DNA of 64,000 nucleotides from Desulfatibacillum sp. (lineage in GTDB: Bacteria > Desulfobacterota > Desulfobacteria > Desulfobacterales > Desulfatibacillaceae): positions 1-64,000 of the forward strand of contig JAEINP010000016.1 of the NCBI GenBank assembly GCA_016342355.1, given 5' to 3'. Each line of letters begins with the position of its first letter. Position 1 is the first letter of the stretch. The position numbers were made by a program, and so were the translations under genes. Under the pieces are notes generated by a model. It was not told where the DNA came from, did no database searches, and was given only the letters and a program-made list of their open reading frames with translations. Of the stretch, positions 35,666-57,628 are shown in pieces.

Positions 35666-37168
35666 ATGCCGAAACCGCCATTAGAACTGCAAACCACCAC
35701 CCTCTGGGAATACCCTTCCCAACATTACGGGGACGGCCAGCAGGGAGACAAAAATTATATAGGAGCCACGCCATCCTGGATTATCTGGAACCTGCTCCAA
35801 CGCTATACCAAGCCCAAGGATCTGGTGGTGGACCCCATGGCCGGGAGCGGCACCACTCTGGATGTTGCCAGGGATCTTTCCAGACGAGCCTTGGGCTATG
35901 ATCTCCAGCCCGCCCACAAGGATGTTTTCCGGGCCGACGCCCGAAAACTGCCTCTGGAAGACGAAAAAGCCGACTTTGTTTTCATAGACCCTCCTTATTC
36001 CGACCACATCAAGTATTCGGGTAGACCGGAATGCATTGGCGAGCTTTCCGCCAACGAACCAGCCTATTACCAGTCCATGGAGACGGTGATTCAGGAAATC
36101 AACCGGGTTCTCAGGCCGGGCCATTATATGGCCCTATATGTGAGCGATTCCTTTGAAAAGGATAAAGCCTTCCATCCCATTGGGTTTGAGCTTTTTGCCC
36201 GATTGCAACAATATTTTGAACCGGTGGATATCATCACCGTGGTGCGCCACAATGCCAAGCTGAAAAAAAACAACTGGCATACTGCGGCTGCGGAGGGGAA
36301 TTTTTTTCTCCGGGGTTTTAATTATCTTTTTATCATGCGGAAACCCCTGGCGCCCAAGCCCGAAAAGCCCAAAAAACGCCCTGACCGTCGGGGGACCTGG
36401 GACAATAATGCCCGTGTGGAGACTAAAAAACCCAGGTGGGATAACAGACCCGACCGTCAGGATCGGCAGGACAGGTCTGGAGGTTCGGAGCGGTGGGAAA
36501 AGCCTGAAGGGCAGGAAGATTCGTCAAAGCCGGGAAAATTCGGCAGACAGGATCGCCAGGAAAGGCCCGGGGGTTCGGATCGGTGGAAAAAACCCGATGA
36601 CAGACAAGAAAGTTCTTCAAGGCCAGGTCAGCCTGTCAGGCAAGACCGCCGGGACAGGCCAAGAGGAGCGGATCGATGGGAAAGGACCGAAAGGCAGGGA
36701 AGTTCGTCAAAACCAGGAAAATTTGGTCGGCAGGACCGGCAAGCAAGACCAAGAGGAACGGAACGATGGGAAAAGCCTGAAGGGCAGGGAAGTTCGTCAA
36801 AACCAGGACAATTTGACAGGCAGGACCGCCAGGACAAACCAAGAGGAACGGATCGATGGGAAAAGCCTGATAGGCAGGGAAGTTCTTCAAAACCTGGAAA
36901 ATTTGATAGGCAAGGTGCAGCAGCCAGGCAAGACCGACCAGATAAACCCCAAGGGCCAAATAAATGGGAAAAACAGGATAATACACCAGGGGGACCAACC
37001 AGACCGGGACGCCCAGCCAAACCGGGAGGAACAACCAGACCGGGACGCCCAACCAAACCAGCCGGGGCTGACAGGCGGGGAAAACTGGATAGGCCGGGCA
37101 TGGCCGACAAACGGGGAAAAACAAGCCCTCAAGGGAGGAAACCAAATGCGCCGAACAGAAAAAAATAG
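35666..37168 (+). CDS. DNA-methyltransferase-like protein with repetitive disordered tail
   Basis: A 500-aa protein with two parts. Residues 1-225 form a SAM-dependent methyltransferase: motif I VDPMAGSGTTLDVA near residue 57 and motif IV DPPYSDH near residue 111, as in N6-adenine/N4-cytosine DNA methylases. No restriction endonuclease gene is adjacent. Residues 226-500 have no fold signature and are extremely rich in Arg, Gln, Asp, Lys, Pro and Gly. They contain five repeats of 30-31 residues (from about residue 264) built on RQDRQ, RWEKP and SSSKPG, then GRP-type repeats. Such tails bind nucleic acid or condense. The DNA/RNA target is unknown, so an RNA methylase is also possible. The stop lies 23 bases inside the next gene. 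Confidence 0.7.
   Translation: MPKPPLELQTTTLWEYPSQHYGDGQQGDKNYIGATPSWIIWNLLQRYTKPKDLVVDPMAGSGTTLDVARDLSRRALGYDLQPAHKDVFRADARKLPLEDEKADFVFIDPPYSDHIKYSGRPECIGELSANEPAYYQSMETVIQEINRVLRPGHYMALYVSDSFEKDKAFHPIGFELFARLQQYFEPVDIITVVRHNAKLKKNNWHTAAAEGNFFLRGFNYLFIMRKPLAPKPEKPKKRPDRRGTWDNNARVETKKPRWDNRPDRQDRQDRSGGSERWEKPEGQEDSSKPGKFGRQDRQERPGGSDRWKKPDDRQESSSRPGQPVRQDRRDRPRGADRWERTERQGSSSKPGKFGRQDRQARPRGTERWEKPEGQGSSSKPGQFDRQDRQDKPRGTDRWEKPDRQGSSSKPGKFDRQGAAARQDRPDKPQGPNKWEKQDNTPGGPTRPGRPAKPGGTTRPGRPTKPAGADRRGKLDRPGMADKRGKTSPQGRKPNAPNRKK
36455..36907 (+). repeat. Five tandem 90-bp coding repeats
   Basis: Units start at 36455, 36545, 36638, 36728 and 36818, with spacings of 90, 93, 90 and 90. A degenerate sixth unit starts at 36908. 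They encode the 30-residue repeats in the tail of the methyltransferase-like protein. Because the period is a multiple of three, other frames also stay open here. Confidence 0.85.
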
Positions 37169-37649
37169 CTGTAAGCGCCTGTATGCATGGGTTTTGTTTG
37201 TGTTCGCGGCGTTAAGCGCCCCGGCATGGGCCATGGACCAGCCGGTTATGTCTATGGGACAGACCGTGTATGTTCCGGTGTATTCCAATGTTTTTTCCGG
37301 CCCCAAGGCCAATCCGTTTCAGCTGGCCGCCATGGTAAGCATCCGCAATACCGATCCCAAGGATTCCATCACCATCCTGCGGGCCGACTATTACGACAAT
37401 GAAGGGCGGATGATAGAAAGCCATATGAAGGAGGCCAAGAAATTGGGTCCCCTGGCCTCCACTCATATTTACATCAAGGAGTACGATACCAAGGGCGGCC
37501 CGGGCGCCAACTTCATCATCCAGTGGCAGGCCAAAGGTTTGGTGAACGAGCCCATCATAGAAACCCTGATGCTTGGCCTCAAGGGGGGCCAGGGGATTTC
37601 GTTTATGTGCCCGGCTAAGGTCATTGAGGCCCGAAAACAAAAGGAATAG
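37146..37649 (+). CDS. DUF3124 secreted protein
   Basis: A 167-aa exported protein. The N-terminal signal peptide ends near APAWAMDQ (about residue 28). The mature part begins with MGQTVYVPVYSNVFSGP and contains LAAMVSIRNTDPKDSITIL, ADYYDNEGRMIES and GANFIIQWQA, which fits DUF3124. The fold resembles an immunoglobulin-like beta domain. The ATG at 37146 follows AAGGGAGG and lies 23 bases inside the methyltransferase gene. The same frame stays open further upstream only because of the 90-bp repeats. The MFS gene follows after 14 bases. Confidence 0.8.
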   Translation: MRRTEKNSCKRLYAWVLFVFAALSAPAWAMDQPVMSMGQTVYVPVYSNVFSGPKANPFQLAAMVSIRNTDPKDSITILRADYYDNEGRMIESHMKEAKKLGPLASTHIYIKEYDTKGGPGANFIIQWQAKGLVNEPIIETLMLGLKGGQGISFMCPAKVIEARKQKE

Positions 37650-39055: not shown

Positions 39056-42000
39056 TTACTGCGTGACTGTCTTCAGAATATATAGAGCATCTTTCAGGCC
39101 TAATAAACCGTCCCCATCCACGTCTGCATGCCAATACACCGGCACGGATTCAGGCGCATGGGAGGCCGCCTTCAGGCACAGTATGGCATCTGCAAAGGTC
39201 ACCAGCCCGTCGTGGTCCACGTCCCCGGGTTGAAGAATTACATAAATGGCGTAGGTCACAGTCGAGCTGTCCTGAGCGGTTACAATCACAACCTGCCGGG
39301 AAATAACGGGATCGGTAAGACCTGAGGAATTCCAGGTCTGGAAGGCATCGCCCGCTGTCAGGGCCGCCAGAAAATCCGCCAGGGTCGTCCCGAACGGCAC
39401 GTTGGTGATGGTTTCGTTGGGTGCCCCTCCCGCGCTAATAGTATACACGTCACTGGTTATGGTGTTGATTGAACTGGGAGGCTCGACATTGATTGTCACC
39501 GCATAGGCCTGGGTGGAGGTGTCGTAGGCGGTCACGGTATAAGTGACCGGCGCGCCGTCCGAAAAATTCTGCGCCGCCCCGGAAGCCGGAGATACCGTCA
39601 CCCCCGTAATGGTGATGGCGGACACAAGGCCCGTCAGACTGGTTCCATAAGGCACTGTGAATGTAACTGTTTTGGCGTCTTCGTCAATGACACCCGTGGC
39701 CGGAGGCGAAGCAAAGGAAAAAGCAGTGATCGCCCTGGGGGGTATGGGATAGAGAGTGCCCACAGCGCCAGCCTGAGATCCGCTTCCGCCCAGGGCCAAC
39801 GTAGTCAGAGTTGAATTGTCCGTTTCGCTCTCTATAGCTATCCTGCCGCCAGCTCCGCCGCCGCCATATCCATATCCACCCGAATCAATAGCATTTCCAC
39901 CTTTTGAAAAAACCTCGCCGCTACCGGTCAGGGTTTGGGTTTGGATCCAGATGCTTCCCCCTGACCCTGCACCAGTCGATGCATACATCCAATAAACTCC
40001 ATCGCCTCCATTTGTGGTAATGGAGCCGTCCAGGGTGAGTGTACCGGAAATAACCAACTTGATGGCCCCGCCACCCGCTCCGCCAGGGTACCCGTATTTG
40101 GTGGAGTAGCCCCCTCCAGAGCCCAGGTCAACAGGATTAGTGAGGGAACTGTAAGCCACACCGCCCAGAGAGGTGGAGCCATTGCCACCATTGCCACCAT
40201 GGCCCGCGCCACCCGCACCGGCGCTCGATGAACCGACGTTGACGCCTGCGCCCGGACCGGAAGCGGAAGCATAGCCCTTGGCATTGGCCGATATAATGCC
40301 TCCGGGCTGCACATCCAGATTTTCAGTCACATTAAGGTTGAGCATATTATCTGCTGTGGCGGCGTTGGCCTTGTGGGTCAAAACCCCGGCGTCCAAAATG
40401 GTGACATTGTCCAGGGTCAATGGAACGTCCGGGGCAATGTTCTGAAATTCAAAGGTCGCCCCTGCGCCGAGGGTGAGGTCCGTCAAGGCATCGAGGGTTC
40501 CGTTCTGGTAGAAAAAGGATGACGTCAGGGTCAAATCGGCCAGAGCGTCAATAGAGCCATTATTGTAGAGGGTTACATTGCTGATTATGGAAGTTGCGGG
40601 CAGAGACATGGTCCCGTTATTGGTGAGGGAGGCATTTGTGGTGGAATTGATAAAGCCGGAGGCTATGTGCAATTCCGCGCCCTCGGGAACCACATAATAC
40701 CCCTTGTTTCTCAGAGACATGTTATCCAGTGTCACGGTGGATGAAATCACCTGAGGGGTAAGAGCCCCGGATTGATCGTTATTGTTTATTAACAAATCTC
40801 CGTAAAAGGCTGGCGACACCTTGGTCAGAATCGTGCCTGCCCCGCCGTACTGGGTTCCGCTTCCGCCCAGGGCCAACGTAGTCAGAGTTGAATTGTCCGT
40901 TTCGCTCTCTATAGCTATCCTGCCGCCAGCTCCGCCGCCGCCATATCCATATCCACCCGAATCAATAGCATTTCCACCTTTTGAAAAAACCTCGCCGCTA
41001 CCGGTCAGGGTTTGGGTTTGGATCCAGATGCTTCCCCCTGACCCTGCACCAGTCGATGCATACATCCAATAAACTCCATCGCCTCCATTTGTGGTAATGG
41101 AGCCGTCCAGGGTGAGTGTACCGGAAATAACCAACTTGATGGCCCCGCCACCCGCTCCGCCAGGGTACCCGTATTTGGTGGAGTAGCCCCCTCCAGAGCC
41201 CAGGTCAACAGGATTAGTGAGGGAACTGTAAGCCACACCGCCCAGAGAGGTGGAGCCATTGCCACCATTGCCACCATGGCCCGCGCCACCCGCACCGGCG
41301 CTCGATGAACCGACGTTGACGCCTGCGCCCGGACCGGAAGCGGAAGCATAGCCCTTGGCATTGGCCGATATAATGCCTCCGGGCTGCACATCCAGATTTT
41401 CAGTCACATTAAGGTTGAGCATATTATCTGCTGTGGCGGCGTTGGCCTTGTGGGTCAAAACCCCGGTATCCTGAATGGTGAGGTTAGCCAGGGTAAATGG
41501 TGCGTCCGGAGTAAGGTTTTGAAACTCCCATGAGGAATTGAGTCCGATCGTTAAATCCGTCAAGGCATCAAAGGTTCCGTTTTGATAAAATGTCGAAGAA
41601 ATCAGGGTCAGGTCGGTCAGAGCGTCAATAGAGCCATTATTGGTCAACGTAAAATTATTTAAGATTAGGGTGGATGGCAGGGACAGGACTCCGTAGTTGG
41701 TGAGTGAGGATTCTACAGTACAATTATTGAAACCCGTCCCAAGGTTTAAAACAGAGTCAGCAGGAACCGCATAGTATCCGTTGTTTTTTAACACGAGGTT
41801 GTCGATTGTTACCGTGGTGGCGGGAACCTGACTGGTGTAAGCCCCGGAATGGGTATTGTTGTCTATGATTAAATCCCCATTGACGGAACCGACGATTTTA
41901 AGAATCGTGCCTGCCCCGCCGTATTGGATTCCGCTGGCGCCTCCGTAAGCCTGGATATCCAGGGTCGAGTTATCCGTGGAGCAGGTAACGGCAACTCGTC

Positions 42001-42775
42001 CTCCAGCTCCGCCGCCGCCGCGATTGCGGTAAATACCCCCGCGTCCTCCGTTTGCTGTAACCGTGCCGGTTCCAGCCAGTGTGGCTGCTTGAATCCAGAT
42101 ACTTCCTCCGGACCCGCCCCCGCCGTCCGCGTACATCCCGTACGACCCATCACCCCCATTGCAGGCGATGGAGCCATCCAGAGTTAGGGTTCCGGAAATG
42201 GTCAGCTTAACGGCTCCGCCCCCCGGCCCTCCAGAAAACCCGTATCTGGTGGAGTAGCCCCCTCCTGAGCCCAGGTCAACAGGATTAGTGAAGGAACCGT
42301 AAGCCACACCGCCCGGAGAGGTGGAGCCATTGCCGCCCTCCCCCCCATAACCCGCGCCTCCCGCACCGGCTTCCGATCCATCTCCGTTGACGCCTGCGCC
42401 CGGGCCGGAAGCGGAAGCATAGCCCTTGGAGTCGGCATTGAGGGTTCCCCCGGATTCAACGGTAAAATTGGTCGCCGACGCGTTGGACAGGTTTCCGGTT
42501 ATGGAACCGCCCGGCTCTATGGTGATGTCCCCGCCCATCTCAATGCTGAAACTCTCTTGGGCGTTGGTTATAAGATTCCCTCCGCCGACAATCACCAGGT
42601 TTCCCGTGCCGGAAATGACATCTCCGTCAGAAAGAGTCTGGACGGTTGAAATCGTGCATGTGCCATTTAGGTCGCCGGAGTCACAAGTAAAGGCAAAACA
42701 AGGATAAAACGGCGCAAAAAGCAAGAATATGAGCGTTATTTCAGCACATAAATACAGCCTATTGGCGGTTTTCAT
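39056..42775 (-). CDS. Giant Gly-rich secreted repeat protein with dockerin-like end
   Basis: A 1239-aa exported protein. The signal peptide runs from the ATG at 42775 to about CFAFTC. Three long repeats of roughly 359 residues follow. Each has a Gly/Ser/Ala-rich block (SGPGAGVN, GAGGAGHGG, GGGYSTKYGYPGGAGGGAIKL) and a beta-helix-like part with alternating NGSIDALADLTL and SFFYQNGT. The last two Gly-rich blocks are identical. Next come two DUF5018-like domains (residues about 1010-1170), then a dockerin-like pair (DVDHDGLVTFADA and DVDGDGLLGLKDA). It is probably a surface or secreted adhesin or structural protein. The start is fixed by GGTGA 6 bases upstream and by a promoter at 42837-42865, which excludes the longer frame. 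Confidence 0.75.
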   Translation of the reverse strand: MKTANRLYLCAEITLIFLLFAPFYPCFAFTCDSGDLNGTCTISTVQTLSDGDVISGTGNLVIVGGGNLITNAQESFSIEMGGDITIEPGGSITGNLSNASATNFTVESGGTLNADSKGYASASGPGAGVNGDGSEAGAGGAGYGGEGGNGSTSPGGVAYGSFTNPVDLGSGGGYSTRYGFSGGPGGGAVKLTISGTLTLDGSIACNGGDGSYGMYADGGGGSGGSIWIQAATLAGTGTVTANGGRGGIYRNRGGGGAGGRVAVTCSTDNSTLDIQAYGGASGIQYGGAGTILKIVGSVNGDLIIDNNTHSGAYTSQVPATTVTIDNLVLKNNGYYAVPADSVLNLGTGFNNCTVESSLTNYGVLSLPSTLILNNFTLTNNGSIDALTDLTLISSTFYQNGTFDALTDLTIGLNSSWEFQNLTPDAPFTLANLTIQDTGVLTHKANAATADNMLNLNVTENLDVQPGGIISANAKGYASASGPGAGVNVGSSSAGAGGAGHGGNGGNGSTSLGGVAYSSLTNPVDLGSGGGYSTKYGYPGGAGGGAIKLVISGTLTLDGSITTNGGDGVYWMYASTGAGSGGSIWIQTQTLTGSGEVFSKGGNAIDSGGYGYGGGGAGGRIAIESETDNSTLTTLALGGSGTQYGGAGTILTKVSPAFYGDLLINNNDQSGALTPQVISSTVTLDNMSLRNKGYYVVPEGAELHIASGFINSTTNASLTNNGTMSLPATSIISNVTLYNNGSIDALADLTLTSSFFYQNGTLDALTDLTLGAGATFEFQNIAPDVPLTLDNVTILDAGVLTHKANAATADNMLNLNVTENLDVQPGGIISANAKGYASASGPGAGVNVGSSSAGAGGAGHGGNGGNGSTSLGGVAYSSLTNPVDLGSGGGYSTKYGYPGGAGGGAIKLVISGTLTLDGSITTNGGDGVYWMYASTGAGSGGSIWIQTQTLTGSGEVFSKGGNAIDSGGYGYGGGGAGGRIAIESETDNSTLTTLALGGSGSQAGAVGTLYPIPPRAITAFSFASPPATGVIDEDAKTVTFTVPYGTSLTGLVSAITITGVTVSPASGAAQNFSDGAPVTYTVTAYDTSTQAYAVTINVEPPSSINTITSDVYTISAGGAPNETITNVPFGTTLADFLAALTAGDAFQTWNSSGLTDPVISRQVVIVTAQDSSTVTYAIYVILQPGDVDHDGLVTFADAILCLKAASHAPESVPVYWHADVDGDGLLGLKDALYILKTVTQ
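39779..40389. repeat. Perfect 611-bp direct repeat, copy A
   Basis: Read base by base, this segment matches 40856-41466 without a difference that I can see. It lies inside the giant Gly-rich protein gene. The repeat-to-repeat distance is 1077 bp (359 codons). A third, clearly diverged copy lies at about 41930-42440. Confidence 0.9.
40856..41466. repeat. Perfect 611-bp direct repeat, copy B
   Basis: Partner of 39779-40389 at the same reading frame. The flanking spacer segments that encode the rest of each 359-codon unit are diverged, so identity stops abruptly at both ends. Confidence 0.9.
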
Positions 42776-42836
42776 TGGCGTCACCATTATCCATAACTCG
42801 CTGTAAATTATTAGAATTTGCTTCAAGAGATATCCA

Positions 42837-42865
42837 AGTATGGCAAAAGGCTGTCTGTATGTCAA
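42837..42865 (-). promoter_or_regulatory. Sigma-70 promoter of the giant repeat protein gene
   Basis: On the minus strand TTGACA (42865-42860) is followed after exactly 17 bases by CATACT (42842-42837). Initiation would be near 42830, leaving a leader of about 55 bases before the ATG at 42775. Confidence 0.65.
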
Positions 42866-43179: not shown

Positions 43180-44079
43180 TCATTTCAGGATTCGTCCTAT
43201 TTCAAACAGGATATCCTGCTTGCGGATAATGCCCAGGACCTCGCCCTTTTCCACCACAGCCAACCTGAGGGTTTCATTCGTGAGCATGGAGTAAACCGCC
43301 TCCATGAGGTTGGCGTCCCCGTCAATATTGAGGGGCGCCGGGCTCATGATTTCCTTGATCTTGACCCCCGCAGCCTGAAGGACCTGGCTGGTGAAAATGC
43401 CCTGCCAGAACATGGGGGAATACTGGATGCTGTCCGCCATGGAGGGCTTGGGAGCCGAGAGATATTTGGGCACCAACGCCCTGAAAATATCCTCAATGGT
43501 CAAGACCCCCTGCATTTTGCCGGAAGAGGACAGAACCAGCAGGGAGACATGGCCGGACTCGGTGAGGCTGGACGTGGAATCCTTTCCCATGTAGGACTGT
43601 TTCAGAGTCGCCACGGCGTCCTTTAGGGTGGCGTTTTCCTCCAGGGTGCTATAGGCGCTGATGGGTATCATGACTTCCCGCACCAGTTTTTCCCCGTTTT
43701 TGTTTTCAGAACCTGCCTGGCGATGGGCGTCAGTAATCCTGGAAGCCAACAGATCCATGGAGCAGGGTTTGGATAGATAATCATAGGCCCCCTGATCCCT
43801 GGCTTTTTCCGCCGAGGGTAAGGCCCCGTGCCCGGTGAGCATGATCACCGGGGTGTCAGGATTGGTATCCTTGATTTTATGCAATACATCGTGGCCGCTG
43901 ATTCCCGGCATTTTTATGTCCAAGACTACCACGTCGGGCTTTTCCTTCATCATTTTTAGGGCTTGCTCCCCGGTGGCGGCCACCAGGGTATCAAAGCCTC
44001 TTTTATCCAGGATCCTTTTCGTAGTGGCCCGGAATTGATCCTCGTCATCCACCAGCAGGACTTTAATGGACTCGTTCAT
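43180..44079 (-). CDS. Response regulator with CBS-domain output
   Basis: A 299-aa cytoplasmic protein. The receiver domain spans residues 1-120 with acidic pocket DDE at 11-13, phospho-acceptor Asp54 (VVVLDIKMPG) and switch Thr/Lys (MLTGHG, LSKPC). Residues 135-299 form two CBS motifs: VREVMIPISAYSTLEENATLKDAVATL..., GVLTIEDIFRAL, then IKEIMSPAPLNIDGDANLMEAVYSM and GIIRKQDILFEIG. CBS pairs bind adenine nucleotides or SAM, so phosphorylation may be integrated with energy state. There is no DNA-binding domain. It is the last gene of the leftward operon, 99 bases after the Yip1-like gene. A target could be the transporter encoded upstream. Confidence 0.88.
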   Translation of the reverse strand: MNESIKVLLVDDEDQFRATTKRILDKRGFDTLVAATGEQALKMMKEKPDVVVLDIKMPGISGHDVLHKIKDTNPDTPVIMLTGHGALPSAEKARDQGAYDYLSKPCSMDLLASRITDAHRQAGSENKNGEKLVREVMIPISAYSTLEENATLKDAVATLKQSYMGKDSTSSLTESGHVSLLVLSSSGKMQGVLTIEDIFRALVPKYLSAPKPSMADSIQYSPMFWQGIFTSQVLQAAGVKIKEIMSPAPLNIDGDANLMEAVYSMLTNETLRLAVVEKGEVLGIIRKQDILFEIGRILK

Positions 44080-44178
44080 ATATTACCTCCTGCGCAAACC
44101 AGGTTTGTTTTCCCTGGCATACGCCATATTCGGGCGAATTCGCCGTATCGGGTTTCCGTTAGATATTCATAGGCCTTT

Positions 44179-44724
44179 TCAGGCTCCTTTTATTCCTGCA
44201 ATGACTGGCATCATGGACCAGAAGAACATGCTGATCAAGAAGATAGAAGCCAACGCCACCAGGATGGATTGCAGCCAAGTGAGTTTGCCAGCTTTAACCA
44301 TGCCAAGGGTAATCAGGCACCATTTCCAGGGTTCCGTAAACCATACAAACAAGGGAATCCAGGCGGCAAGCATGGTGACCCCGGCGGCATACGCATGAAC
44401 GGCCACCAGGGTTTTAAAGGTTACCCGCCTGCCAAGGAACATGGTCATGACCAGGAAACAAGCTCCCGCCGACAGTATGGGCATAAGCAGGGAATTGAGC
44501 AGGTACACGCCCGCCATAATGGCATGTCCATGGGAAAGACAGGTCAGGCTTGCTCCTGTGTAGAAAAGGGCGCACGCTATGAGGAAGCCCAAAGGCTTGC
44601 CCATGGGTATGTCCTCTTCCAATGAGGAGAAAAAGGCCCCCGGCCTGCTTAACACGCCTGTCAATGCCTGGAAATATCCAATAACCCCAGAGCCTTGTAG
44701 TTTTACATCTTCTGCCAAATCCAT
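44179..44724 (-). CDS. Yip1-family membrane protein
   Basis: A 181-aa protein with about five hydrophobic segments. The N-terminal YFQALTGVLSRPGAFFSSLEEDIPMGKPLGFLIACALFY matches the Yip1 pattern (F...L..P..FF..L......P..F). The bacterial role of Yip1 proteins is unknown. The gene is 29 bases downstream of the 53-aa membrane protein gene and part of the sigma-54 operon with the SLC13 transporter, so an accessory role at the transporter is plausible. Confidence 0.75.
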   Translation of the reverse strand: MDLAEDVKLQGSGVIGYFQALTGVLSRPGAFFSSLEEDIPMGKPLGFLIACALFYTGASLTCLSHGHAIMAGVYLLNSLLMPILSAGACFLVMTMFLGRRVTFKTLVAVHAYAAGVTMLAAWIPLFVWFTEPWKWCLITLGMVKAGKLTWLQSILVALASIFLISMFFWSMMPVIAGIKGA

Positions 44725-44753
44725 AATCCCAGTTTCCTTATGTCCCGTATGTT

Positions 44754-44915
44754 TTATAGAAGTCCCAGTCTTGAGAGAACTCCCAGCACCAACATGATAC
44801 CTGTGAGTACGAAGAATACAGCCCGCTCCGTATCCCGATGGAAGTAAGTCCGTCCCTTTTCGTGGACAAAAACCTTGGCGCTTTTATCCCTGACACTGCC
44901 TTCAAATGGATTCAT
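44754..44915 (-). CDS. 53-aa single-TM protein between SLC13 and Yip1 genes
   Basis: A small gene with a clear GAGGAAG ribosome site 5 bases before its ATG. The protein starts MNPFEGSVRDKSAKVF, has a charged soluble half (HEKGRTYFHRDTER), and ends in one hydrophobic helix of about 20 residues (AVFFVLTGIMLVLGVLSRLGLL contains it). It lies 41 bases after the SLC13 stop and 29 bases before the Yip1-like start, all on the same strand. The orientation (positive residues before the helix) suggests N-in. A small subunit or regulator of the transporter is the natural guess, but no family is recognised. Confidence 0.75.
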   Translation of the reverse strand: MNPFEGSVRDKSAKVFVHEKGRTYFHRDTERAVFFVLTGIMLVLGVLSRLGLL

Positions 44916-44956
44916 CTTGCTTCCTCACTTTGGCTAAAAATGTCGTTTAAACAGCC

Positions 44957-46810
44957 CTAAAAGGCTGGCAACCCGGAAAAACCCCTTGCGGACCAGTAAA
45001 TCGCCACCATCAGAACCACCACGATGTTGGCAACAAACCACATGGGAATGCCTACCCGCAGGTAATCCTTGGGCTCCAGGTAACCGCTGGCATATACAAT
45101 GGCGTTGGGCGGCGTACCTATAATGAGGCAATAGGCAAAGGAAGAAGCGATTGCCGTGCCCATGGCCATGAAAGGCAGGTAGGTGGTACCGGGATGCACC
45201 AAGGCAGCCATGTTCAGGGAGATGGGACCTACGGCTGCCGCAGCCGGGCCGTCCGCCATCAGGTTGGTAAGAATGGCAGTGAGGCCGTTGTTCACCAGCA
45301 AAAGGGGCAGGCCCGAGTCCATGCCCAGAGGCGCCAGGGCGTCCAGGATGCTCCGGGCCATCCAGTAGGCGGCGCCGGTGCTGTCCAGGGTATGGCCAAA
45401 GATGATTGCTCCTGCATAGAGCCACACTACGCCCCAGTCCACTCTTTCCTGGTAGTCACGCCAGTTGCAGACACCGGTGAGCAGATATGCCATGGCGCCG
45501 CCTATGGCAATGACACCGATGCCCAGGCGCACGGGATAGATGCCCATGTCAAAAAAGGCTTTTTCTGTAAACCACCCAAAAACCATGACCACAAAGATAA
45601 TGAAGGCCCATATTTGTTTGGAGTTCCAGGGACCCATTTTGCTGGTTTCCCTTTGCAACTGCGCCATGGCAGGCGCCAGGGAATGAATTTGGGGCTTAAA
45701 ACGCCAGTTGACCATGAACCAAGTGATGGGAATCATAACAATGAGAAAGGGGAAACAGTAGGTAACCCACTGGAAGTACCCGATGTCCATACCGAACATA
45801 TCGTTCAGGTAGGTCATCATGATAACGTTCCTGGCGCCGCCGGAAGGAGCGCCCGGGCCGCCGATGTTGCAGGCCATGGCGATGGCTATCATGAGCAGCT
45901 TGCCCAGTTCCTTGTCTTCCGGAATATCTTTGGTCAGGCTGTTCTGGTAGAGAAGGATACCGATGGGAAGAAACATGGCTGCCAGGGCATGGTCAGAAAT
46001 AAACGCGGCCAAGGGGGTAATGATGACGAAAAAGACCAACGTAACCCACTTGACATTAGGCACAGCCAGCTTTTTGAACATCATGAGGCAAACCCTCTTG
46101 TCCACCCCGGTCTTTACAAAGGCCGCGGCGAACATGAGGCTGCCCATGATAAACCAGCAGGCGTCGCTCCAATAAAGCCCCGCCACATCATTGCGGGAGA
46201 CAACCCCCGTGGCCACCAGAATCAGGCCGATACAGAAAGCCACCCCTGGCAAAGGTATGCACTCCGTGAGGAAGCAGAAAACCACAAAGGTCATCATGGC
46301 CGCAGCCACCTTAATGTGCCAGGCGCCCTTGTCGGCGGCGGCTTTGTCCTTGCCGGTGAGGTCCTCGTATTTCAGGTCATGCTTCCGCAGCTTGAGAGCC
46401 CCTTGCATAATTTTTTCAAAGCTCTCGACTGTCATGGAGTTTTCCACATAAGCCTTGGCCTTGTCGAAATTTGCGGACGTAGCCTCAATTCCGTATTTGG
46501 AGCACCATTTCACGTCGCGTTTGAGAAAACGGGCTCTGCCAAGAGCACCCATACGTAAATTTTGCTCCATCATTTTCGCCGTTAATAACTGCCATTGCTC
46601 CGCATCGGAACTGCCTTTGCCAAACAGTTGTTTGGTGATAGAGTTAACAACGACTTTTGTCCCCACCTGGTACTCGGTACCCACATCCTTCATGCCGTAG
46701 GGTGTGGGCAGGAGGAGGACGGCAAAGAATAAAATCACCGGGATAACGAACAATTTCCAATCCACAAACTTGTCATACCCGGTGGCCTTTCCCTTTTTTA
46801 TGTCAGACAT
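44957..46810 (-). CDS. SLC13/DASS-family anion:sodium symporter with extracytoplasmic insert
   Basis: A 617-aa transporter. After TM1 (residues about 18-36) an insert of roughly 125 hydrophilic residues precedes TM2, which is not usual for DASS proteins. The rest shows the family repeats: ECIPLPGVAFCIGLILVATGVV, SDACWFIMGSLMFAAAF, NIGGPGAPSGGARNVIMMTYL, and MADGPAAAAVGPI with IGTPPNAIVYASGY near the end. DASS proteins import dicarboxylates or sulfate with sodium. In sulfate reducers, either substrate is reasonable. The ATG at 46810 follows GGAG by 7 bases. It is in an operon with an upstream kinase and receiver and three downstream genes. Confidence 0.88.
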   Translation of the reverse strand: MSDIKKGKATGYDKFVDWKLFVIPVILFFAVLLLPTPYGMKDVGTEYQVGTKVVVNSITKQLFGKGSSDAEQWQLLTAKMMEQNLRMGALGRARFLKRDVKWCSKYGIEATSANFDKAKAYVENSMTVESFEKIMQGALKLRKHDLKYEDLTGKDKAAADKGAWHIKVAAAMMTFVVFCFLTECIPLPGVAFCIGLILVATGVVSRNDVAGLYWSDACWFIMGSLMFAAAFVKTGVDKRVCLMMFKKLAVPNVKWVTLVFFVIITPLAAFISDHALAAMFLPIGILLYQNSLTKDIPEDKELGKLLMIAIAMACNIGGPGAPSGGARNVIMMTYLNDMFGMDIGYFQWVTYCFPFLIVMIPITWFMVNWRFKPQIHSLAPAMAQLQRETSKMGPWNSKQIWAFIIFVVMVFGWFTEKAFFDMGIYPVRLGIGVIAIGGAMAYLLTGVCNWRDYQERVDWGVVWLYAGAIIFGHTLDSTGAAYWMARSILDALAPLGMDSGLPLLLVNNGLTAILTNLMADGPAAAAVGPISLNMAALVHPGTTYLPFMAMGTAIASSFAYCLIIGTPPNAIVYASGYLEPKDYLRVGIPMWFVANIVVVLMVAIYWSARGFSGLPAF

Positions 46811-46853
46811 CTGCACTCTCCTGATCTCTAATGGATGGCTCTTGCTTTACCCG

Positions 46854-47306
46854 CTATTCAGCCCTTTGTTTGAGAATTTCTCTGGGAGACTTGACGTAAG
46901 AACGCGCCTGCGCCATGGAAATCCGTTCCTCAATCCCTTGCCGCCGTTTGTAGGCTTCCGCTACTCTTGCCAAAAGGTCGTCAATGTCGCAGGGTTTCAT
47001 CACATAATCCGAAGCGCCTAATTTCATTCCGTCCACAGCGTCCTCCACCGTGGCATGGCCCGTGAGCATGATCACCTCGGTGAGGGGGTAGAGGTTTTTA
47101 ATTCTCCGAAGAGTTTCCAAACCGTCCATTCCAGGCATTTTTACATCCAACACCACCACATGCACCGTGTGGGCGCCCAACAGGTCCAGGGCTTCCTCCC
47201 CGCTGTTGGCAGTAATGGCCTCGTATCCCGCCTTGGTGATGAGTTTCTTGGTGGTTTCCAAAAATCTTGCTTCATCATCCACCAGCATTAGTTTCATTTT
47301 TTCCAT
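46854..47306 (-). CDS. Stand-alone response regulator receiver
   Basis: A 150-aa protein with a complete receiver domain: acidic pocket at residues 10-12, Asp54 in VVVLDVKMPGMDG, Thr in MLTGHAT and Lys in VMKPCD. The last 30 residues (KRRQGIEERISMAQARSYVKS) are a charged helix shared in style with two other receivers in the island. There is no DNA-binding output domain, so it acts by protein contact or as a phosphate relay. AAGGAG lies 7 bases before the ATG. It sits between its likely kinase (58-base gap) and the SLC13 gene (43-base gap). Confidence 0.92.
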   Translation of the reverse strand: MEKMKLMLVDDEARFLETTKKLITKAGYEAITANSGEEALDLLGAHTVHVVVLDVKMPGMDGLETLRRIKNLYPLTEVIMLTGHATVEDAVDGMKLGASDYVMKPCDIDDLLARVAEAYKRRQGIEERISMAQARSYVKSPREILKQRAE

Positions 47307-47364
47307 CCCTTGCTCCTTTCCCGGATAGCCGGTCTTTATAAAAGGTTCGGCCAGCCATTTTATT

Positions 47365-49050
47365 TCATGCCACTCCAGGCAGGGTGATAATGAATTCCGT
47401 TCCCTTGCCAGGTTCGCTATTCACCACTATGCTTCCGCCCATTTTCTCGATGATGCCGTAACAGATGGACAATCCCAGACCTGTGCCCTTCCCAACGGGT
47501 TTGGTGGAGAAAAAGGGTGTAAAAATCTTTTCCATGTTGTCTGTTTTGATGCCCATACCGTTGTCACTTACGCGGATGACTGCCTGTCCATCCTTTTGGC
47601 TGCAATCCAGTTTCAACTCCCCTCCCCCAGAGGAACCGTGTCTTTCCACGATGGCGTAGATGGCGTTATTGATAAGGTTGAGCAAAACCTGTTGAAGCTG
47701 TGCCGGATCGGCGTTAACCCTTATGGGGGGGGGCTCCGTTTGGAGGGACAGGGCAACGCCGTCCAGCTCAGCTTTTCGGGCGATCATGTGCGTTACCTCA
47801 GGAAGGGTTTCGCACAGATCAATAACCTGGGGGCTCAAATCCTTTTGTCGGGCGAACTTGAGGATAGCGCCGGTAATGACGGCGCACCGGTCCACCTGAA
47901 GTTTGATCTGGTTCAAGGAATCTTCCACATCTTTGGAATCCTCGGATTCCACCCATTCTCCACGTTTTTTTAAATCAGGAATAATGGAGTCGATGAGGGC
48001 GGATTCAGCCCGGATAATCTGTAAAGGATTATTGATTTCGTGGGCAAAACCCGAGGACATCTCCCCGATTTCCGCCAGCCTTCCGGCAACAACAAGCTGC
48101 TGATTCAGTTGGTTTTTCTCCTGGTCCGCCAACTGAATGCGGGCAATAATCCGGTTACTCGTGTAAAAGGCCAGGACGGACAATATGATGCCGCCTCCCA
48201 GGGCTATGAGCATGACCAGGAACCTGGCTTGGTTAAGGTCGGAAAAAGTATCGGAGGTTTCCTGACGGGCCACCAAAAGCCATGGCTGGGTCGGCATCCA
48301 GGTTGTCACATACAGGTACTCGCCGCCCCGGCCATCCTCCATGATGCAGCTTTGAGTGCCATGGGTTTGTTGAAGGAGGGACTCTGCCTCGGGGGCCAGT
48401 TCCATAAGATTTCCCCCGGATCGCCTGCTTGTCTGGAACACCCCTTCCTGATTCAGGATATAGGCCTCGCCAGTTCTGCCCATGCGCACCTGCTCCACGA
48501 CCTCAGTAAACAGGTAGGGATCAATGGTGGCCCGCAAAACCCAGGTCCTGTCCCCTTCCTTTTGGGAGATTGCAATGACAAAATGGGGGACTTTCCTGAA
48601 CCCCTCAAAGATGTCGGACACATAGCTTCCGTTTTTCCTGACCTGACCGAACCATTGGGAATCAGAATAGAGTTTGCCAGCCAACTCATAAGGACCGTGA
48701 TAAGCCACATGGACGCCAGCCTGATCAAAAATGCCCAAATCCAAAAATGCATTGGACTTTTTCTGGAGGTTCCTGAACACCCGGCCCAGGGTTTCCTGAT
48801 CCTGGAGGGAATCGTATCCATAGGCTTCGGCCACAAAGCCCAGGTCTGCTTTCCGCTCTTTCAAAAAGGAGTCCACGAGCCTGGCATGGTCCTCGACAAC
48901 CCGTTCCATTTTGGCAATGGTATTGGCCTTGGTGGATATGGAAAAATGTTCAAAAGCCACCACCGCTGCCAAGACAAAGGGAACCAGGGGGGTGATGAGC
49001 ATGCTCGCCAAAATTTTCCGTTTTAAAGAGTGGTAGTGATTTTCTTGCAT
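47365..49050 (-). CDS. Sensor histidine kinase with periplasmic Cache-type domain
   Basis: A 561-aa membrane kinase. TM1 is near residues 15-32, a periplasmic region of about 245 residues has dCache features ([64 protein letters not shown]), and TM2 is near 278-298. The cytoplasmic part has the H-box [14 protein letters not shown]-box [10 protein letters not shown]1 DNGMGI and G2 [10 protein letters not shown]. It would sense a small ligand, possibly the anion carried by the downstream SLC13 protein, and phosphorylate the next-door receiver. It is paralogous to the 600-aa kinase at 53.3 kb. A sigma-54-type promoter lies about 60 bases upstream. Confidence 0.93.
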
Positions 49051-49108
49051 GGCATCCCCAAATTGTTAGTTGGATTCCGGTCCGCAATGCGTTCCGGCGA
49101 AATGTAAT

Positions 49109-49124
49109 GGCAGGACTTGTGCCA
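49109..49124 (-). promoter_or_regulatory. Sigma-54 (-24/-12) promoter of the leftward kinase/SLC13 operon
   Basis: On the minus strand TGGCACAAGTCCTGCC has GG and GC separated by exactly 10 bases and fits TGGCAC-N5-TTGCW except at the first T and last base. It lies 59 bases before the ATG at 49050. Confidence 0.75.
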
Positions 49125-49478
49125 ATCAGGTAGGAGATTGTTCCATTGGAAATAACAATCTGAAATCATGCATGTTTTAAAATTTCATGTACTGAGAAAA
49201 TGGCGAAATGGAGGTTTTGCATTTGTCAGGTATCTTTACGGCCTGTAAAGGCCTTTAGCGCGAAAGGGAAAAGGCCGGACAATTTCGCGCCACTCATGGG
49301 GAGGGTTTCAATAAAATGAGTTTTCAAAATTCTCGTATTTTTTTTCTGGTGTCCCCCCATTAAAAAAAAATCCTTCGATTCATCTTCCTCAAAAGCGAAG
49401 ATGTTTTCATCATGCTGTTTCATAGCCCGGAAACCCGGCCTTTTTTTGCAGAAGGCCTCCTGATTTCCATCCCGCAAG

Positions 49479-49497
49479 GTGTCAGAAATATTTACAC
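49479..49497. promoter_or_regulatory. Candidate activator-binding palindrome, site 1
   Basis: GTGTCAGAAATATTTACAC has the form GTGT-N11-ACAC with a full TTTACAC right half. It is 158 bases upstream of the rightward sigma-54 promoter and 355 bases upstream of the leftward one. Similar 19-bp elements occur at 52725 and 60424. Confidence 0.55.
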
Positions 49498-49654
49498 TCT
49501 GGAAAAAACTTTGCAGAATCCCTTTGAAAAGGTGTTAAATAATATTTTAAACAGGAAAATTTTCCGGGTCTTTCGACGGACTAATAGCCCATAACTATTT
49601 AACATAACAATATTATTTATATTATTATATATTATGTAAGATATTCTGGCGCCT

Positions 49655-49670
49655 TGGCAAAGGCTTTGCT
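49655..49670 (+). promoter_or_regulatory. Sigma-54 promoter of the kinase/NtrC-type activator operon
   Basis: TGGCAAAGGCTTTGCT matches TGGCAC-N5-TTGCW with one mismatch (C to A at position 6) and exact GG-N10-GC spacing. It lies 126 bases before the kinase ATG and follows an AT-rich tract. Confidence 0.8.
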
Positions 49671-49795
49671 AAGGTAGTTTGGTTAGCCTATTCTGAAAAT
49701 CAGGGATAGTTTCAGCTGTCTGAAAGCCATTGGCAAAAGAATTTCGATGTTTTTCAAGTCCGGAAAAAATAATTCGGACTGCCACAGGAGTTTTC

Positions 49796-51265
49796 ATGGG
49801 CGCCTATTTAAGTTTGCGGACAAAAATTTTCCTTCTTCTGGCTGGATTGGTGGGAGTGAATTGTGTGGGAGCCGCCTCCACTCTGTGGTATACCTATTCC
49901 ACTCAAAAACTTTATAAAATCGAATTATCACGGGGCATTAGCTCTCTTATTGCAGCTCAGGACCTGGAAACTGCTTTAATCATGCAAAAGGGTTATACCA
50001 CCTACTTTTTTTTGGATGGTGATATCCAGTGGCTGGAAAGCCTTAAGGAGCATCAGCTGGGTTTCCGGGTAGGCATGGAGCGGGCCGAGAATGCTGCATC
50101 CTCGGAGCGTGAAAAACAGGTTCTCCAAAAGATATCAGATTCTTATATAAAATTTAGCATACAGAGGGAAGTGGTTATCGAGTTGTACAAAGAAGGGAAT
50201 GAGAAAGCGGGCGCCGCCAAGCACTGGGAGGTGCGTAAGCAATTCCATGTCATCTACACTTTTTGCGAAGAGTATAAGCAAATCCAGGAAAACCGTATTG
50301 ACCTCGCCCATGAAGCGTATCGCCACAGGGGAAGAGTGCTTGCCGGTTTTTCTTTAGTGGCTGTTTTTCTTGCAGTGATATGCGGTTTTTTGCTGGGTTT
50401 TCTAATTTATCAGGAGATTTTGGAACCCCTTCGCCGTCTGGCCAGATTAGGGGGGGAAGGCCCAAAAAGAAAGGGAGTGGGCAACGAGGTCCAGGCCCTT
50501 GGAAACAGGTTTGACAGCCTGTTACAGGATGTGGATCAGGCCCATATGGAATTGGAGCAGAGCCGGGAGCACCTGATTCAGGCCGAAAAGCTGGCCATGG
50601 TAGGAAAACTCTCCGCCGGCGTGGCACACAGTATCCGCAACCCCCTGACTTCCGTAAAAATGCGGCTTTTTTCCTTGGAAAGATCCCTGGACCTGAACGA
50701 CATCCAACGCGAGGATTTTGAAGTTATTTCTGAAGAAATTGGGCATTTGAACACCATTGTTGGCAACTTTCTGGAGTTTGCCAGACCCCCCAGACTGCGT
50801 ACGCAAAGGACCAGCTTGTCCGAGGTGGTGGACATGACCCTGCAACTGGCCCAGCACCGGCTGGAATCCTATGGGGTGGAAGCCATTGTCCAGCGCAAGC
50901 TAAAACTTCCCTCCCTCATTGCTGATCCGGATCAACTCAAGGAATTCCTTATGAATCTCATCATGAATGCCTGTGAAGCCATGGGGGATGGCGGTAAACT
51001 ATTCATCAAGGAGGAGTCGGCCGATATCAAGGGCTTAGGCCCTTGCGCCACCCTGCGCATTTGCGACACGGGACCCGGCATTCCCCCCAATATTGCGCCC
51101 AAGGTGTTTGAGCCTTTTTTTTCGAGTAAGGAAGAAGGCACCGGGCTTGGCCTGAGTATCGCCAGCCGCATCATTACCGAACACGGGGGGATTTTGCGCA
51201 TGGAACATGAAGAAGGCATGGGCGCTTGTTTTTATGCGATCCTGCCCCTGAAGGAGGAAGAATAG
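49796..51265 (+). CDS. Sensor histidine kinase partner of the NtrC-type activator
   Basis: A 489-aa kinase. TM1 is near residues 10-30, a helical periplasmic region of about 150 residues follows (four-helix-bundle-like, with QDLETALIMQKGYTTYFFLDGD), and TM2 is near 185-208. A HAMP-like linker leads to the H-box LSAGVAHSIRNPLTSVKM, N-box LMNLIMNACEAM, G1 DTGPGIPP and G2 GTGLGLSIA, as in NtrB/ZraS-type kinases. The ATG at 49796 has CAGGAG 5 bases upstream. The activator gene begins at the last base of its stop codon. The pair is a classical sigma-54 two-component system. Confidence 0.93.
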   Translation: MGAYLSLRTKIFLLLAGLVGVNCVGAASTLWYTYSTQKLYKIELSRGISSLIAAQDLETALIMQKGYTTYFFLDGDIQWLESLKEHQLGFRVGMERAENAASSEREKQVLQKISDSYIKFSIQREVVIELYKEGNEKAGAAKHWEVRKQFHVIYTFCEEYKQIQENRIDLAHEAYRHRGRVLAGFSLVAVFLAVICGFLLGFLIYQEILEPLRRLARLGGEGPKRKGVGNEVQALGNRFDSLLQDVDQAHMELEQSREHLIQAEKLAMVGKLSAGVAHSIRNPLTSVKMRLFSLERSLDLNDIQREDFEVISEEIGHLNTIVGNFLEFARPPRLRTQRTSLSEVVDMTLQLAQHRLESYGVEAIVQRKLKLPSLIADPDQLKEFLMNLIMNACEAMGDGGKLFIKEESADIKGLGPCATLRICDTGPGIPPNIAPKVFEPFFSSKEEGTGLGLSIASRIITEHGGILRMEHEEGMGACFYAILPLKEEE

Positions 51266-52701
51266 TGGCTACCATCCTGATTGTGGACGACGACCCCCAG
51301 TTGAGACAAAGTTTTGAAAGAATTCTCCAGGAAGAAGAGCACCTTGTCCATACCGCCTCCAGCGGCGAGGCAGGGCTTGTAAAGGTGGAGCAAATCAAGC
51401 CTGATCTGGTGATCATGGACGTGCGTATGCCAGGGATGGACGGGCTGACAACCTACCGGGAAATCCAAAAAATCGAGCCTCGCCTGCCTGTGATCATCAT
51501 GACCGCCTTTGGCACTACTGAGACCGCCATAGAAGCCACCAAAATGGGGGCCTTTGACTACATCCTGAAACCCTTTGATATTCCGGCAATTTTGGCTTTG
51601 ATTGACCAGGCCATCAAGGCCTCGCGCTTCATGCATACCAAGGTGCAGGTGGGTGACTATTCGGACGATGCTCCCCAGGATGCTCTGGTGGGAAAAAGCC
51701 CGGCCATGCAGGACATATACAAATCCATAGGCAGGGTTGCCTCCACGGACGCCACCGTGCTGGTGCGCGGAGAATCCGGCACAGGCAAGGAACTGGCAGC
51801 CCGGGCTATATACCAGCACAGTCTGCGGGCCCATCGGCCCTTTTTGGTCATCAACTGCGTAGCCATTCCCCCCACTCTTTTGGAAAGTGAATTGTTCGGC
51901 TATGAAAAAGGGGCGTTTACCGGGGCTTCCAGCCGGAGGGTGGGCAAGATCGAACGGGCCAACCATGGGTCCATTTTCCTGGATGAAATTGGGGATATGC
52001 CACTGGAAATTCAGTCAAAAATTCTTCGTCTGCTCCAGGAAAGGAGTATCGAACGTCTGGGAGGCAGGGAGCCCATTCCCGTGGATGTCCGGATTATAGC
52101 AGCCACCAACCGCAACCTGGAAGAAGCTGTGCGCCAGGGACACTTCCGGGAGGATCTTTATTATCGCCTGAAAGTGGTGACCCTCACCCTGCCGCCCCTA
52201 AGAGAAAGAATCGGGGACGTGCCTCTGTTGGCGGAGTACTTTTTGTCCAGGCACGCCATGGCAATGGCCATGCCCAATCCCGGCCTGACCAAAGCTGCGG
52301 CCAGAATACTGGAAACCCAACCCTGGCCAGGCAATGTGCGGGAGTTGTCCAATGCCCTGCAAAAAGCCCTGATCTTTTCAAAAGGCTACCCGCTGGAACC
52401 TGAAGAAATCAGCCGGGCAGCTGCCTGGTCCATGCCCGACGATGTTCAGGCCCAGGATACCGACGATGAGCATGTGGACGCCCTCATCCGCAAATGGGTG
52501 CGGGAGCAGATGAGCATCAGCCATGACGGGCGCCTTTTTGAACAGATAATGGACCACCTGGGCAGTCTGGTTATTGCCGAAACCCTGCGCATTACCGGAG
52601 GAAACCGGACCCGGGCAGCCAAGATTTTAGGGCTTTCCCGGCCTACCCTTCTTTCCCGCATTGAAAAATACGATCTCAAGATCAAGACCTCTGTTTCCTA
52701 A
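51265..52701 (+). CDS. NtrC-family sigma-54-dependent response regulator
   Basis: A 478-aa activator with three domains. The receiver (1-120) has Asp52, Thr80 and Lys102. The AAA+ domain (about 142-375) has Walker A GESGTGKE at 169-176, the sigma-54-contact loop GAFTGA at 216-221, and Walker B SIFLDEIGD at 236-244. A Fis-type HTH lies near the end (GNRTRAAKILGLSRPTLLSRIEKY). It remodels sigma-54 RNA polymerase after binding upstream sites. The start is a GTG overlapping the kinase stop, with AAGGAGG upstream. Four sigma-54-type promoters and three similar palindromes in this island make it the likely local master regulator, including of itself. Confidence 0.95.
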   Translation: MATILIVDDDPQLRQSFERILQEEEHLVHTASSGEAGLVKVEQIKPDLVIMDVRMPGMDGLTTYREIQKIEPRLPVIIMTAFGTTETAIEATKMGAFDYILKPFDIPAILALIDQAIKASRFMHTKVQVGDYSDDAPQDALVGKSPAMQDIYKSIGRVASTDATVLVRGESGTGKELAARAIYQHSLRAHRPFLVINCVAIPPTLLESELFGYEKGAFTGASSRRVGKIERANHGSIFLDEIGDMPLEIQSKILRLLQERSIERLGGREPIPVDVRIIAATNRNLEEAVRQGHFREDLYYRLKVVTLTLPPLRERIGDVPLLAEYFLSRHAMAMAMPNPGLTKAAARILETQPWPGNVRELSNALQKALIFSKGYPLEPEEISRAAAWSMPDDVQAQDTDDEHVDALIRKWVREQMSISHDGRLFEQIMDHLGSLVIAETLRITGGNRTRAAKILGLSRPTLLSRIEKYDLKIKTSVS

Positions 52702-52724
52702 GCTCCAAGCCCCTGTTTTACGAA

Positions 52725-52743
52725 GTGTAAAGATTTTTTACAC
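52725..52743. promoter_or_regulatory. Candidate activator-binding palindrome, site 2
   Basis: GTGTAAAGATTTTTTACAC is a perfect inverted repeat (GTGTAAA-N5-TTTACAC). It lies 24 bases past the activator stop codon and 96 bases upstream of the sigma-54 promoter at 52839, a usual enhancer distance. Confidence 0.65.
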
Positions 52744-52753
52744 CCCCCCTGCC

Positions 52754-52780
52754 AAGGGCCTTCTCAGGCCCTTTGTTTAA
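52754..52780 (+). terminator. Terminator after the NtrC-type activator gene
   Basis: AAGGGCC at 52754-52760 pairs perfectly with GGCCCTT at 52767-52773, followed by TGTTT. The T-run is short, so efficiency is uncertain. It separates the activator operon from the next sigma-54 operon. Confidence 0.55.
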
Positions 52781-52838
52781 AAACGACATTAGAAAAAAAA
52801 TTCAAGCATTTATATCAATTTTTTCCCCCCATGAATTC

Positions 52839-52854
52839 TGGTACGGCTGTTGCG
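52839..52854 (+). promoter_or_regulatory. Sigma-54 promoter of the second SLC13/multi-receiver operon
   Basis: TGGTACGGCTGTTGCG has the exact GG-N10-GC spacing and differs from TGGCAC-N5-TTGCW at the fourth and last bases. It is 40 bases before the ATG at 52894. It also shows that the ATG at 52831, upstream of it, cannot be the start. Confidence 0.75.
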
Positions 52855-52893
52855 ATACTTCCTGGCAGCTTAGGCTGCCAAAGGAGGGCGGAC

Positions 52894-53316
52894 ATGCTTG
52901 AACCAGAAATCACAATTTGCGTTGCCGACCCCAACCCTCGGGTCAGAGAACTGTTGCGAAGGGAATTTTCGTCCCTGGGATGCACGGTGATTTTGGCGCG
53001 TACCAGCCAAGAGGTTGTGGAGGCGTGTTTGTCATCCAGTCCGCCCGATCTGGTGGTCGTGGATCCGGAATTATCTTGCGCGGATTCCGACCCTATCCTG
53101 ACCAGGATTTCCATGTTCATGCCCAAGTTACCGGTCGTGCTTCATGCATTTCCCGGTGAAGCATTGAATCATCCGGCGGCTCACAAGGCTGCAGCCATAT
53201 TGGAAAAGGGGGAGAGCACAAACCGCTTAAAGGATGTGGTCTTCCGAATCTTAAACGAACGCGACGTGGTAACCCGGACTAACAAATGGAAAAGGAAAGA
53301 CATTACAGCGGAGTAA
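52894..53316 (+). CDS. Degenerate receiver-like protein
   Basis: A 140-aa protein with receiver-domain topology: a first strand with ITICVADPNPRVRELL, a central DLVVVDPELS with Asp57, and LEKGES near the place of the conserved lysine. The acidic pair is reduced to Ala11-Asp12, and the switch Thr is replaced in VVLHAF, so normal phosphorylation is doubtful. AAGGAGG lies about 7 bases before the ATG. The gene is first in the third operon and overlaps the following kinase gene by 31 bases. It may bind the kinase or receivers without being phosphorylated. Confidence 0.75.
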   Translation: MLEPEITICVADPNPRVRELLRREFSSLGCTVILARTSQEVVEACLSSSPPDLVVVDPELSCADSDPILTRISMFMPKLPVVLHAFPGEALNHPAAHKAAAILEKGESTNRLKDVVFRILNERDVVTRTNKWKRKDITAE

Positions 53317-55515: not shown

Positions 55516-55535
55516 TTGTTTAGAGAGGCCACGCC

Positions 55536-55934: not shown

Positions 55935-55970
55935 TACAGGGGCTGTTACTGTGCCTGGAAAGGACGAAAC

Positions 55971-57554: not shown

Positions 57555-57628
57555 AGCGGATTTCACGGATTTATTAATTTGGTGAAACAGGTGTAGGATG
57601 GCTGAAAAGCCGGAAAGGAGCACGGATT

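Follow-up and report, generated by a model that had tools for sequence, protein, structure and literature searches.

A methyltransferase gene in a 64,000-nt stretch of DNA from Desulfatibacillum sp. (GCA_016342355.1, contig JAEINP010000016.1, positions 1–64,000 of the forward strand), hereafter the window, probably encodes an orphan DNA amino-methyltransferase of type II restriction-modification stock (BsaWI/CCGG kind), in which a long C-terminal tail would act as a DNA tether; this reading is drawn from comparisons of sequences. The open reading frame (35,666–37,168, plus strand) begins with ATG and encodes 500 amino acids, divided between a catalytic core (residues 1–226; 35,666–36,343, plus strand) and a basic tail predicted to be disordered (residues 227–500; 36,344–37,165, plus strand).

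The core was assigned as an S-adenosylmethionine (SAM)-dependent amino-methyltransferase from its match to PF01555, an AlphaFold2 model, and an alignment of 112 rows. Motif I, which binds SAM (DPMAGSGTT, residues 56–64; 35,831–35,857, plus strand) and in which D56, G60, G62, and T63 are invariant throughout the alignment, stands ahead of motif IV (DPPY, residues 108–111; 35,987–35,998, plus strand), which reads DPPY in 106 rows, DSPY in five (L097, L098, L130, L131, and L132), and DPPW in one (L129). A preliminary description of this DNA had called the protein a DPPY-type methyltransferase, and both the motif and the score for PF01555 (N6_N4_Mtase; 74.2 bits, gathering cut-off 26.7) bear this out. 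The linear order of PF01555, with the motif IV half first and the motif I half last, is permuted in the window protein: core residues 9–86 correspond to positions 139–217 of the 221-position Pfam profile, and in PADLOC, whose MTase_II profiles match, residues 80–167 correspond to positions 33–118 of PDLC03316. Because DNA methyltransferases are known to vary by permutation, this order is no bar to membership of PF01555. No separate target-recognition domain is evident in the 226-residue core, which is near-neutral (net charge −2 in the window protein), and the AlphaFold2 model from a run with 112 rows has a mean pLDDT of 87.7 over residues 1–262. No curated NCBIfam family is reached by the window methyltransferase, and the genome holds no second close copy, the next match, at a looser cut-off, having an E-value of 0.006 and 30% identity over 54 residues.

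Relatives of this core are widespread. Of 557 pattern matches from a scan of species genomes, 513 encode a relative; identity over the best segment is 64–74% in the top 80 of these 513, which carry titles from nine phyla, some reading only “bacterium” (Planctomycetota, Hydrogenedentota, Spirochaetota, Myxococcota, and Bdellovibrionota, and further Gemmatimonadota, Muiribacteriota, Proteobacteria, and Desulfobacterales). The methyltransferase was found in six of nine genomes of the window's family, the window's own included, and, in samples that each include their centre, in 12 of 241 genomes at the level of its class and 6 of 247 at that of its phylum, as well as in 31 of 246 genomes from the phylum of locus L012 (Phycisphaerales title); in G182 and G515, from the class and phylum samples, the match covers the second half of the core only. 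At the cut-off used, a single match was seen in each positive genome of the samples. The comparison set consists of 112 loci, namely 129 loci with a profile match less four that are partial and 13 with identical cores, and it is biased, being composed of the best 80 of the 513 scan hits and loci from the genome samples, with the positive genome G494 lying outside it. In a quick tree search of these 112 rows, 46 of which have no phylum label, with a midpoint root used for drawing only, the grouping largely follows phylum; there are also apparent transfers, such as that of L004, which belongs to the window's order and is placed among Planctomycetota. A viral origin was rejected: a first scan of viral contigs yielded one match at 26% identity, and the best 80 of at least 275 relatives in a second scan are only 25–28% identical where they cover most of the core, with higher identity confined to short stretches. 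Phage and plasmid origins were rejected as well, all matches being below 60% identity (among the phage matches listed, 38–45% over short parts; among the 15 plasmid matches listed, no more than 30% where most of the core is covered). Separately, distant relatives of the core occur on 839 plasmid records, of which 778 are predicted to be conjugative.

The orphan state of the gene agrees with the earlier statement that no restriction partner is present. No restriction enzyme was seen beside it or elsewhere in the window among the 25 of 43 PADLOC families listed, in a search of 48 proteins (a ~1250-aa ORF and one short overlapping ORF set aside), a profile of BsaWI-type enzymes found none in the window, and PF18643 has no match in the window's genome. 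Orphan methyltransferases are already a known kind and act as epigenetic regulators. CcrM, Dam, and LomA are like the window methyltransferase, present in one copy, in that no adjacent restriction enzyme is seen; the core nonetheless scores 30.6 bits against a cut-off of 830 for the CcrM equivalog NF050803, and LomA is likened here through its description in a review.

A possible source of the lineage is indicated by the five DSPY rows, which are exactly the members of a separate branch (SH-aLRT 100%; stem of 1.07 changes per site) that is here called the outgroup, a status assumed on the midpoint-rooted quick tree. In four of these five loci, a BsaWI-type enzyme (PF18643, RE_BsaWI) adjoins the methyltransferase: a Pfam scan of the enzymes of L097 and L131 gave E-values of 3.5e-33 and 5.1e-34, and those of L130 and L132 were assigned through a genome search with PF18643 and a profile match, whereas none was found within the 3.7 kb of L098. 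BsaWI has a catalytic K165 and an R169-D170-R171 motif tied to CCGG recognition (PMC4652773), and the four outgroup enzymes share the sequence SSKVTLRER, which has the K165-to-R169-D170-R171 spacing. A profile built from the four enzymes matched none of the 107 other loci (2.5–12.7 kb each; 64 kb for the window). PF18643 itself was detected in 7 of 395 genomes of the window's phylum and, as a control, in 1 of 14 named genomes, that of Methanocaldococcus jannaschii. The outgroup methyltransferases have the same core order and length as the window protein, with 43–50% identity, and differ from it in their DSPY motif, their tails of 1–33 aa, and their partner in four of five loci; the window protein combines DPPY with a tail of 274 aa and lacks a partner of this kind. 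This pattern suggests that the lineage split off from a type II restriction-modification system with an enzyme of the BsaWI/CCGG kind and lost its partner; the origin of orphan methyltransferases from restriction systems is called unresolved in a recent review (PMC13076061).

If so, the enzyme would methylate chromosomal DNA, with a short CCGG-related motif as its target. The likeliest product would be N4-methylcytosine, because the protein belongs to the amino-methyltransferase class and the CCGG core offers only cytosine amino groups; adenine in flanking positions would be the alternative. Several observations weigh against this explanation. The specificity of the outgroup may not carry over, because its members are only 43–50% identical to the window protein and have DSPY, and the link to the restriction enzyme is itself incomplete: besides L098, which is without one, four of the seven genomes with PF18643 lack this methyltransferase beside it, three (G624, G631, and G691) having only a generic methyltransferase match of 22–28 bits nearby and one (G826) none, so that it adjoins PF18643 in the other three. 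Moreover, the closest sequential folds are those of tRNA methyltransferases, and genes for RNA functions are neighbours in some lineages, as detailed below.

The tail of the window protein, given as 275 residues in the preliminary description, is indeed long but comprises 274 residues, starting after K226. It consists of R (17%), P (13%), G (12%), K (11%), and D (10%) among other residues, with eight Trp and no Tyr, and has a net charge of +35 and a pI of 11.2; its earlier characterization as RG/RQ-rich is right in that it is basic and of low complexity, but “RG-rich” is loose, as the tail has no RGG repeat of the kind that marks RGG-type RNA-binding tails. Five repeat units of 30, 31, 30, 30, and 36 aa form an array (residues 276–432; 36,491–36,961, plus strand) that is supported by Tandem Repeats Finder (90-nt period, 4.7 copies, score 403) and by pN/pS; a degenerate sixth unit follows, and then two TRPGRP units in a TRPGRP/AKPGGT region (36,985–37,061, plus strand; 18- and 36-nt periods), in line with the five repeats of about 30 residues and further GRP repeats noticed before. 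Ahead of the array lies a short linear motif resembling PDRRxxxE, degenerate in this protein and found by pattern search and models (residues 239–256; 36,380–36,433, plus strand), within which a helix at about residues 244–254 was predicted in both AlphaFold runs. The tail is predicted to be disordered both by AlphaFold, with a pLDDT of about 39–57 from residue 251 onward in a 30-row run that also modelled parts of the core with less confidence than the 112-row run did, and by composition, as it falls on the disordered side of a charge-hydropathy plot. A search of the genome for the tail sequence matched only the tail itself.

The comparison of tail lengths proposed in the preliminary description was carried out on the 112 distinct full-length relatives, in which the tail measures 1–278 aa with a median of 21; it reaches at least 20 aa in 56 of them and at least 100 aa in four. 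The longest belongs to L005 (278 aa), and, the window and its sister species L003 aside, the other relatives have 1–132 aa. A net positive charge was found in 53 of the 56 tails of at least 20 aa, with a mean of +0.17 per residue, and the last 30 residues have a mean charge of +6.75 in these 56 proteins versus +0.08 in 210 neighbour proteins. N-terminal extensions of at least 8 aa are net positive in all 30 cases, the start codons being uncertain and at least two of the extensions, those of L048 and L062, probably artefacts; core charge tends to fall as tail charge rises (Spearman −0.35 across the 112 rows, with kinship not corrected for). Repeats differ between close relatives. The core of L003 is 87% identical to that of the window, yet its tail has an array of its own with an 11-aa period, along with one copy, recognized by eye, of a unit similar to the 30-aa unit of the window, and L005, from the window's family, has 15 units, nearly all 12 aa apart. 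A loose [DE]RR-x3/4-[ED] pattern within the first 45 tail residues recurs in 18 of the 112 relatives, where the PDRRxxxE-like motif stands ahead of the variable part of the tail. In L110, from the sample of L012's phylum, the same methyltransferase core is flanked on either side by RGG/GGY-rich basic stretches. Apparent N-terminal gene fusions in L025, L029, L048, L056, L064, and L076 were discarded, as they looked like overlapping-frame artefacts of the ORF caller. By these sequence comparisons, the window tail is one extreme of a family-wide trait, not an isolated oddity, and charge and flexibility appear to be maintained in tails more strictly than the exact sequence, with length shifting by in-frame gain and loss of repeats.

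In the explanation that we favour, the tail would be a flexible, nonspecific DNA tether, adding affinity or residence time that the small near-neutral core lacks. Against a tether stands the half of the family (56 of 112) that does without a long tail; the preliminary description had named tail-less relatives with the same activity as a refutation of its reading, and relatives with tails below 20 aa, which may or may not share the activity, do exist. The effect of the tail on DNA binding could also be of the opposite sign, because the C-terminal extension of one Ku protein restrains DNA binding. Bacterial Ku has a conserved core and a short conserved region followed by an extension variable in length and sequence, and in Mycobacterium tuberculosis this variable C-terminus, analogous to the tail, limits DNA binding (both from PMC9638933); the two proteins are unrelated and alike in layout only. 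A tail that regulates or limits DNA binding, or that contacts a partner protein by means of the PDRR helix, without raising affinity for DNA, is a reading with some weight, both the Ku parallel and the recurrence in 18 of 112 tails of a short motif that is predicted to be helical in the window protein speaking for it; we regard it as somewhat unlikely, and no conserved partner gene was seen among the neighbours, the recurrent clusters of which looked lineage-specific (the ORF caller missed the methyltransferase in some loci).

The substrate might instead be RNA, the enzyme being a tRNA or rRNA methyltransferase with an RNA-binding tail. By sequential fold, the nearest PDB structures are the tRNA m2G methyltransferases Trm11, TrmN, and Trm14 (Z 16.7–18.9, 15–22% identity over 156–164 residues), and no DNA methyltransferase is among the 50 of 1000 matches listed, in a comparison where sequential aligners would under-score a circularly permuted DNA methyltransferase. 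What the window protein has in common with these enzymes is the sequential Rossmann methyltransferase fold, which is unspecific, many other SAM methyltransferases matching at Z 14–16. Trm11-type enzymes carry an N-terminal domain, for which the window protein has no room because its core starts at the first residues, and it lies far below the cut-off of the Trm11/TrmN family TIGR01177 (25.8 bits against 316.55). The five best PDB matches of the family profile by sequence, in turn, are DNA methyltransferases or a putative modification methylase. Among neighbouring genes, one encoding a DHH-DHHA1 (nanoRNase-like) protein, identified by a Pfam run on L012 and L028, has a stop that overlaps or abuts the methyltransferase start in six Phycisphaerales/Phycisphaerae loci (L012, L028, L036, L064, L069, and L088), with a FAD-synthetase/riboflavin-kinase gene upstream (Pfam run on L064); in L050, L054, and L077, the gene immediately upstream, which overlaps the methyltransferase gene by a few bases, encodes an RNA pseudouridine synthase (PF00849), and in L043 such a gene precedes it by 40 nt. 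These neighbours, the fold order, and the RGG-rich ends of L110 are leads toward RNA, but the nearest partnered relatives adjoin a DNA restriction enzyme of type II, and because of this the nucleoid DNA considered in the preliminary description is the option that fits best, while RNA, the other option raised there, is not supported as the likely substrate; we judge an RNA methyltransferase unlikely.

Whether the tail matters at all can be judged from the substitutions between its repeats. Between the five units of the window array, pN/pS is 0.26 in frame versus 1.29 and 1.26 in the other two frames, figures that are pooled over ten unit pairs sharing units and hence not independent, and the variable columns of 30 number 10, 10, and 25 at the three codon positions (Fisher P 1.3e-5). 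A frameshift that would leave the tail untranslated, which had been raised at the outset as a refutation, is excluded for the window by these two results, and, on this sequence evidence, the tail is translated and under selection at the protein level. Silent divergence among the units (pS 0.62) equals that between the cores of the window and L003 (0.62), and the array is therefore not recent. The in-frame contrast is weak in the repeats of L005 (0.50 versus 0.63 and 0.74), and in L003 it rests on few sites. That the tail is a neutral and functionless by-product of repeat slippage, as the different units of the sister species (30 aa in the window, 11 aa in L003), those of L005 in the same family (12 aa), and the existence of relatives almost without a tail might suggest, is decidedly unlikely in view of this selection in frame and of the basic character that recurs in dissimilar tails. 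Condensates driven by the tail and concentrating the enzyme in foci are highly unlikely as its role: although the tail speaks for them in being of low complexity, rich in R, W, D, G, and P, and predicted to be disordered, it has no RGG and no Tyr, half of the set has tails below 20 aa, and condensate formation cannot be read from sequence.

The end of the tail overlaps the next gene by 23 nt. This gene encodes a DUF3124 protein (PF11322, E 3.4e-47; 37,146–37,649, plus strand), and its ATG at 37,146 lies inside the last codons of the tail, exactly as described before. A Shine-Dalgarno-like GGGAGG (37,133–37,138, plus strand) is likewise located within the last tail codons, encoded by the stretch that ends the tail with GRKPNAP; the same ending is found in L003, and it may be conserved because it encodes this signal. 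A search of the 112 loci with the DUF3124 protein found the gene beside the methyltransferase in the window and L003 only, and it is best described as a neighbour, a common function with the methyltransferase being no more than conceivable from adjacency. An open +1 frame of 413 aa (36,408–37,649) spans the tail and is in frame with DUF3124, and a similar frame occurs in L003. An overlapping gene in this frame was considered and rejected: the frame stays open in 74% of 2000 synonymous-codon shuffles of the tail and thus needs no explanation; it follows from the near absence of hydrophobic residues in the tail.

Other features of the window were recorded in passing. A repeat protein of ~1250 aa (39,056–42,865, minus strand) has, by eye, near-identical Gly/Asn-rich blocks and a dockerin-like C-terminus, and a dense run of genes resembling sensor kinases and response regulators extends over 43,183–59,439, also by eye. 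One protein in the window matches RtcR_PspF2 of PADLOC at E 2e-110, which may reflect shared AAA domains only.

Among the titles and abstract beginnings listed by full-text searches of open-licence papers, none describes this family or any bacterial DNA methyltransferase with a disordered tail, nor was the combination that the sequences suggest, a core conserved across phyla, a tail that is disordered, interchangeable, and mostly basic, and a partnered branch that can be traced, met there. Sharing the same core, the partnered outgroup and the widespread clade without partners can be compared directly, and the natural series of tails, which runs from 1 to 278 residues with different repeats and mostly the same sign of charge, would test the tuning of a DNA-modifying enzyme by its tail. 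Taken further, and as a tentative proposal that is possible but not favoured by probability, the family may be a cross-phylum lineage of orphan DNA methyltransferases derived from CCGG-type restriction-modification systems that would set, across Planctomycetota, Hydrogenedentota, Spirochaetota, Myxococcota, Bdellovibrionota, and Desulfobacterota, one conserved and so far unrecognised DNA mark (perhaps N4-methylcytosine) and that would be tuned in each lineage by a fast-evolving, basic, disordered DNA tether.
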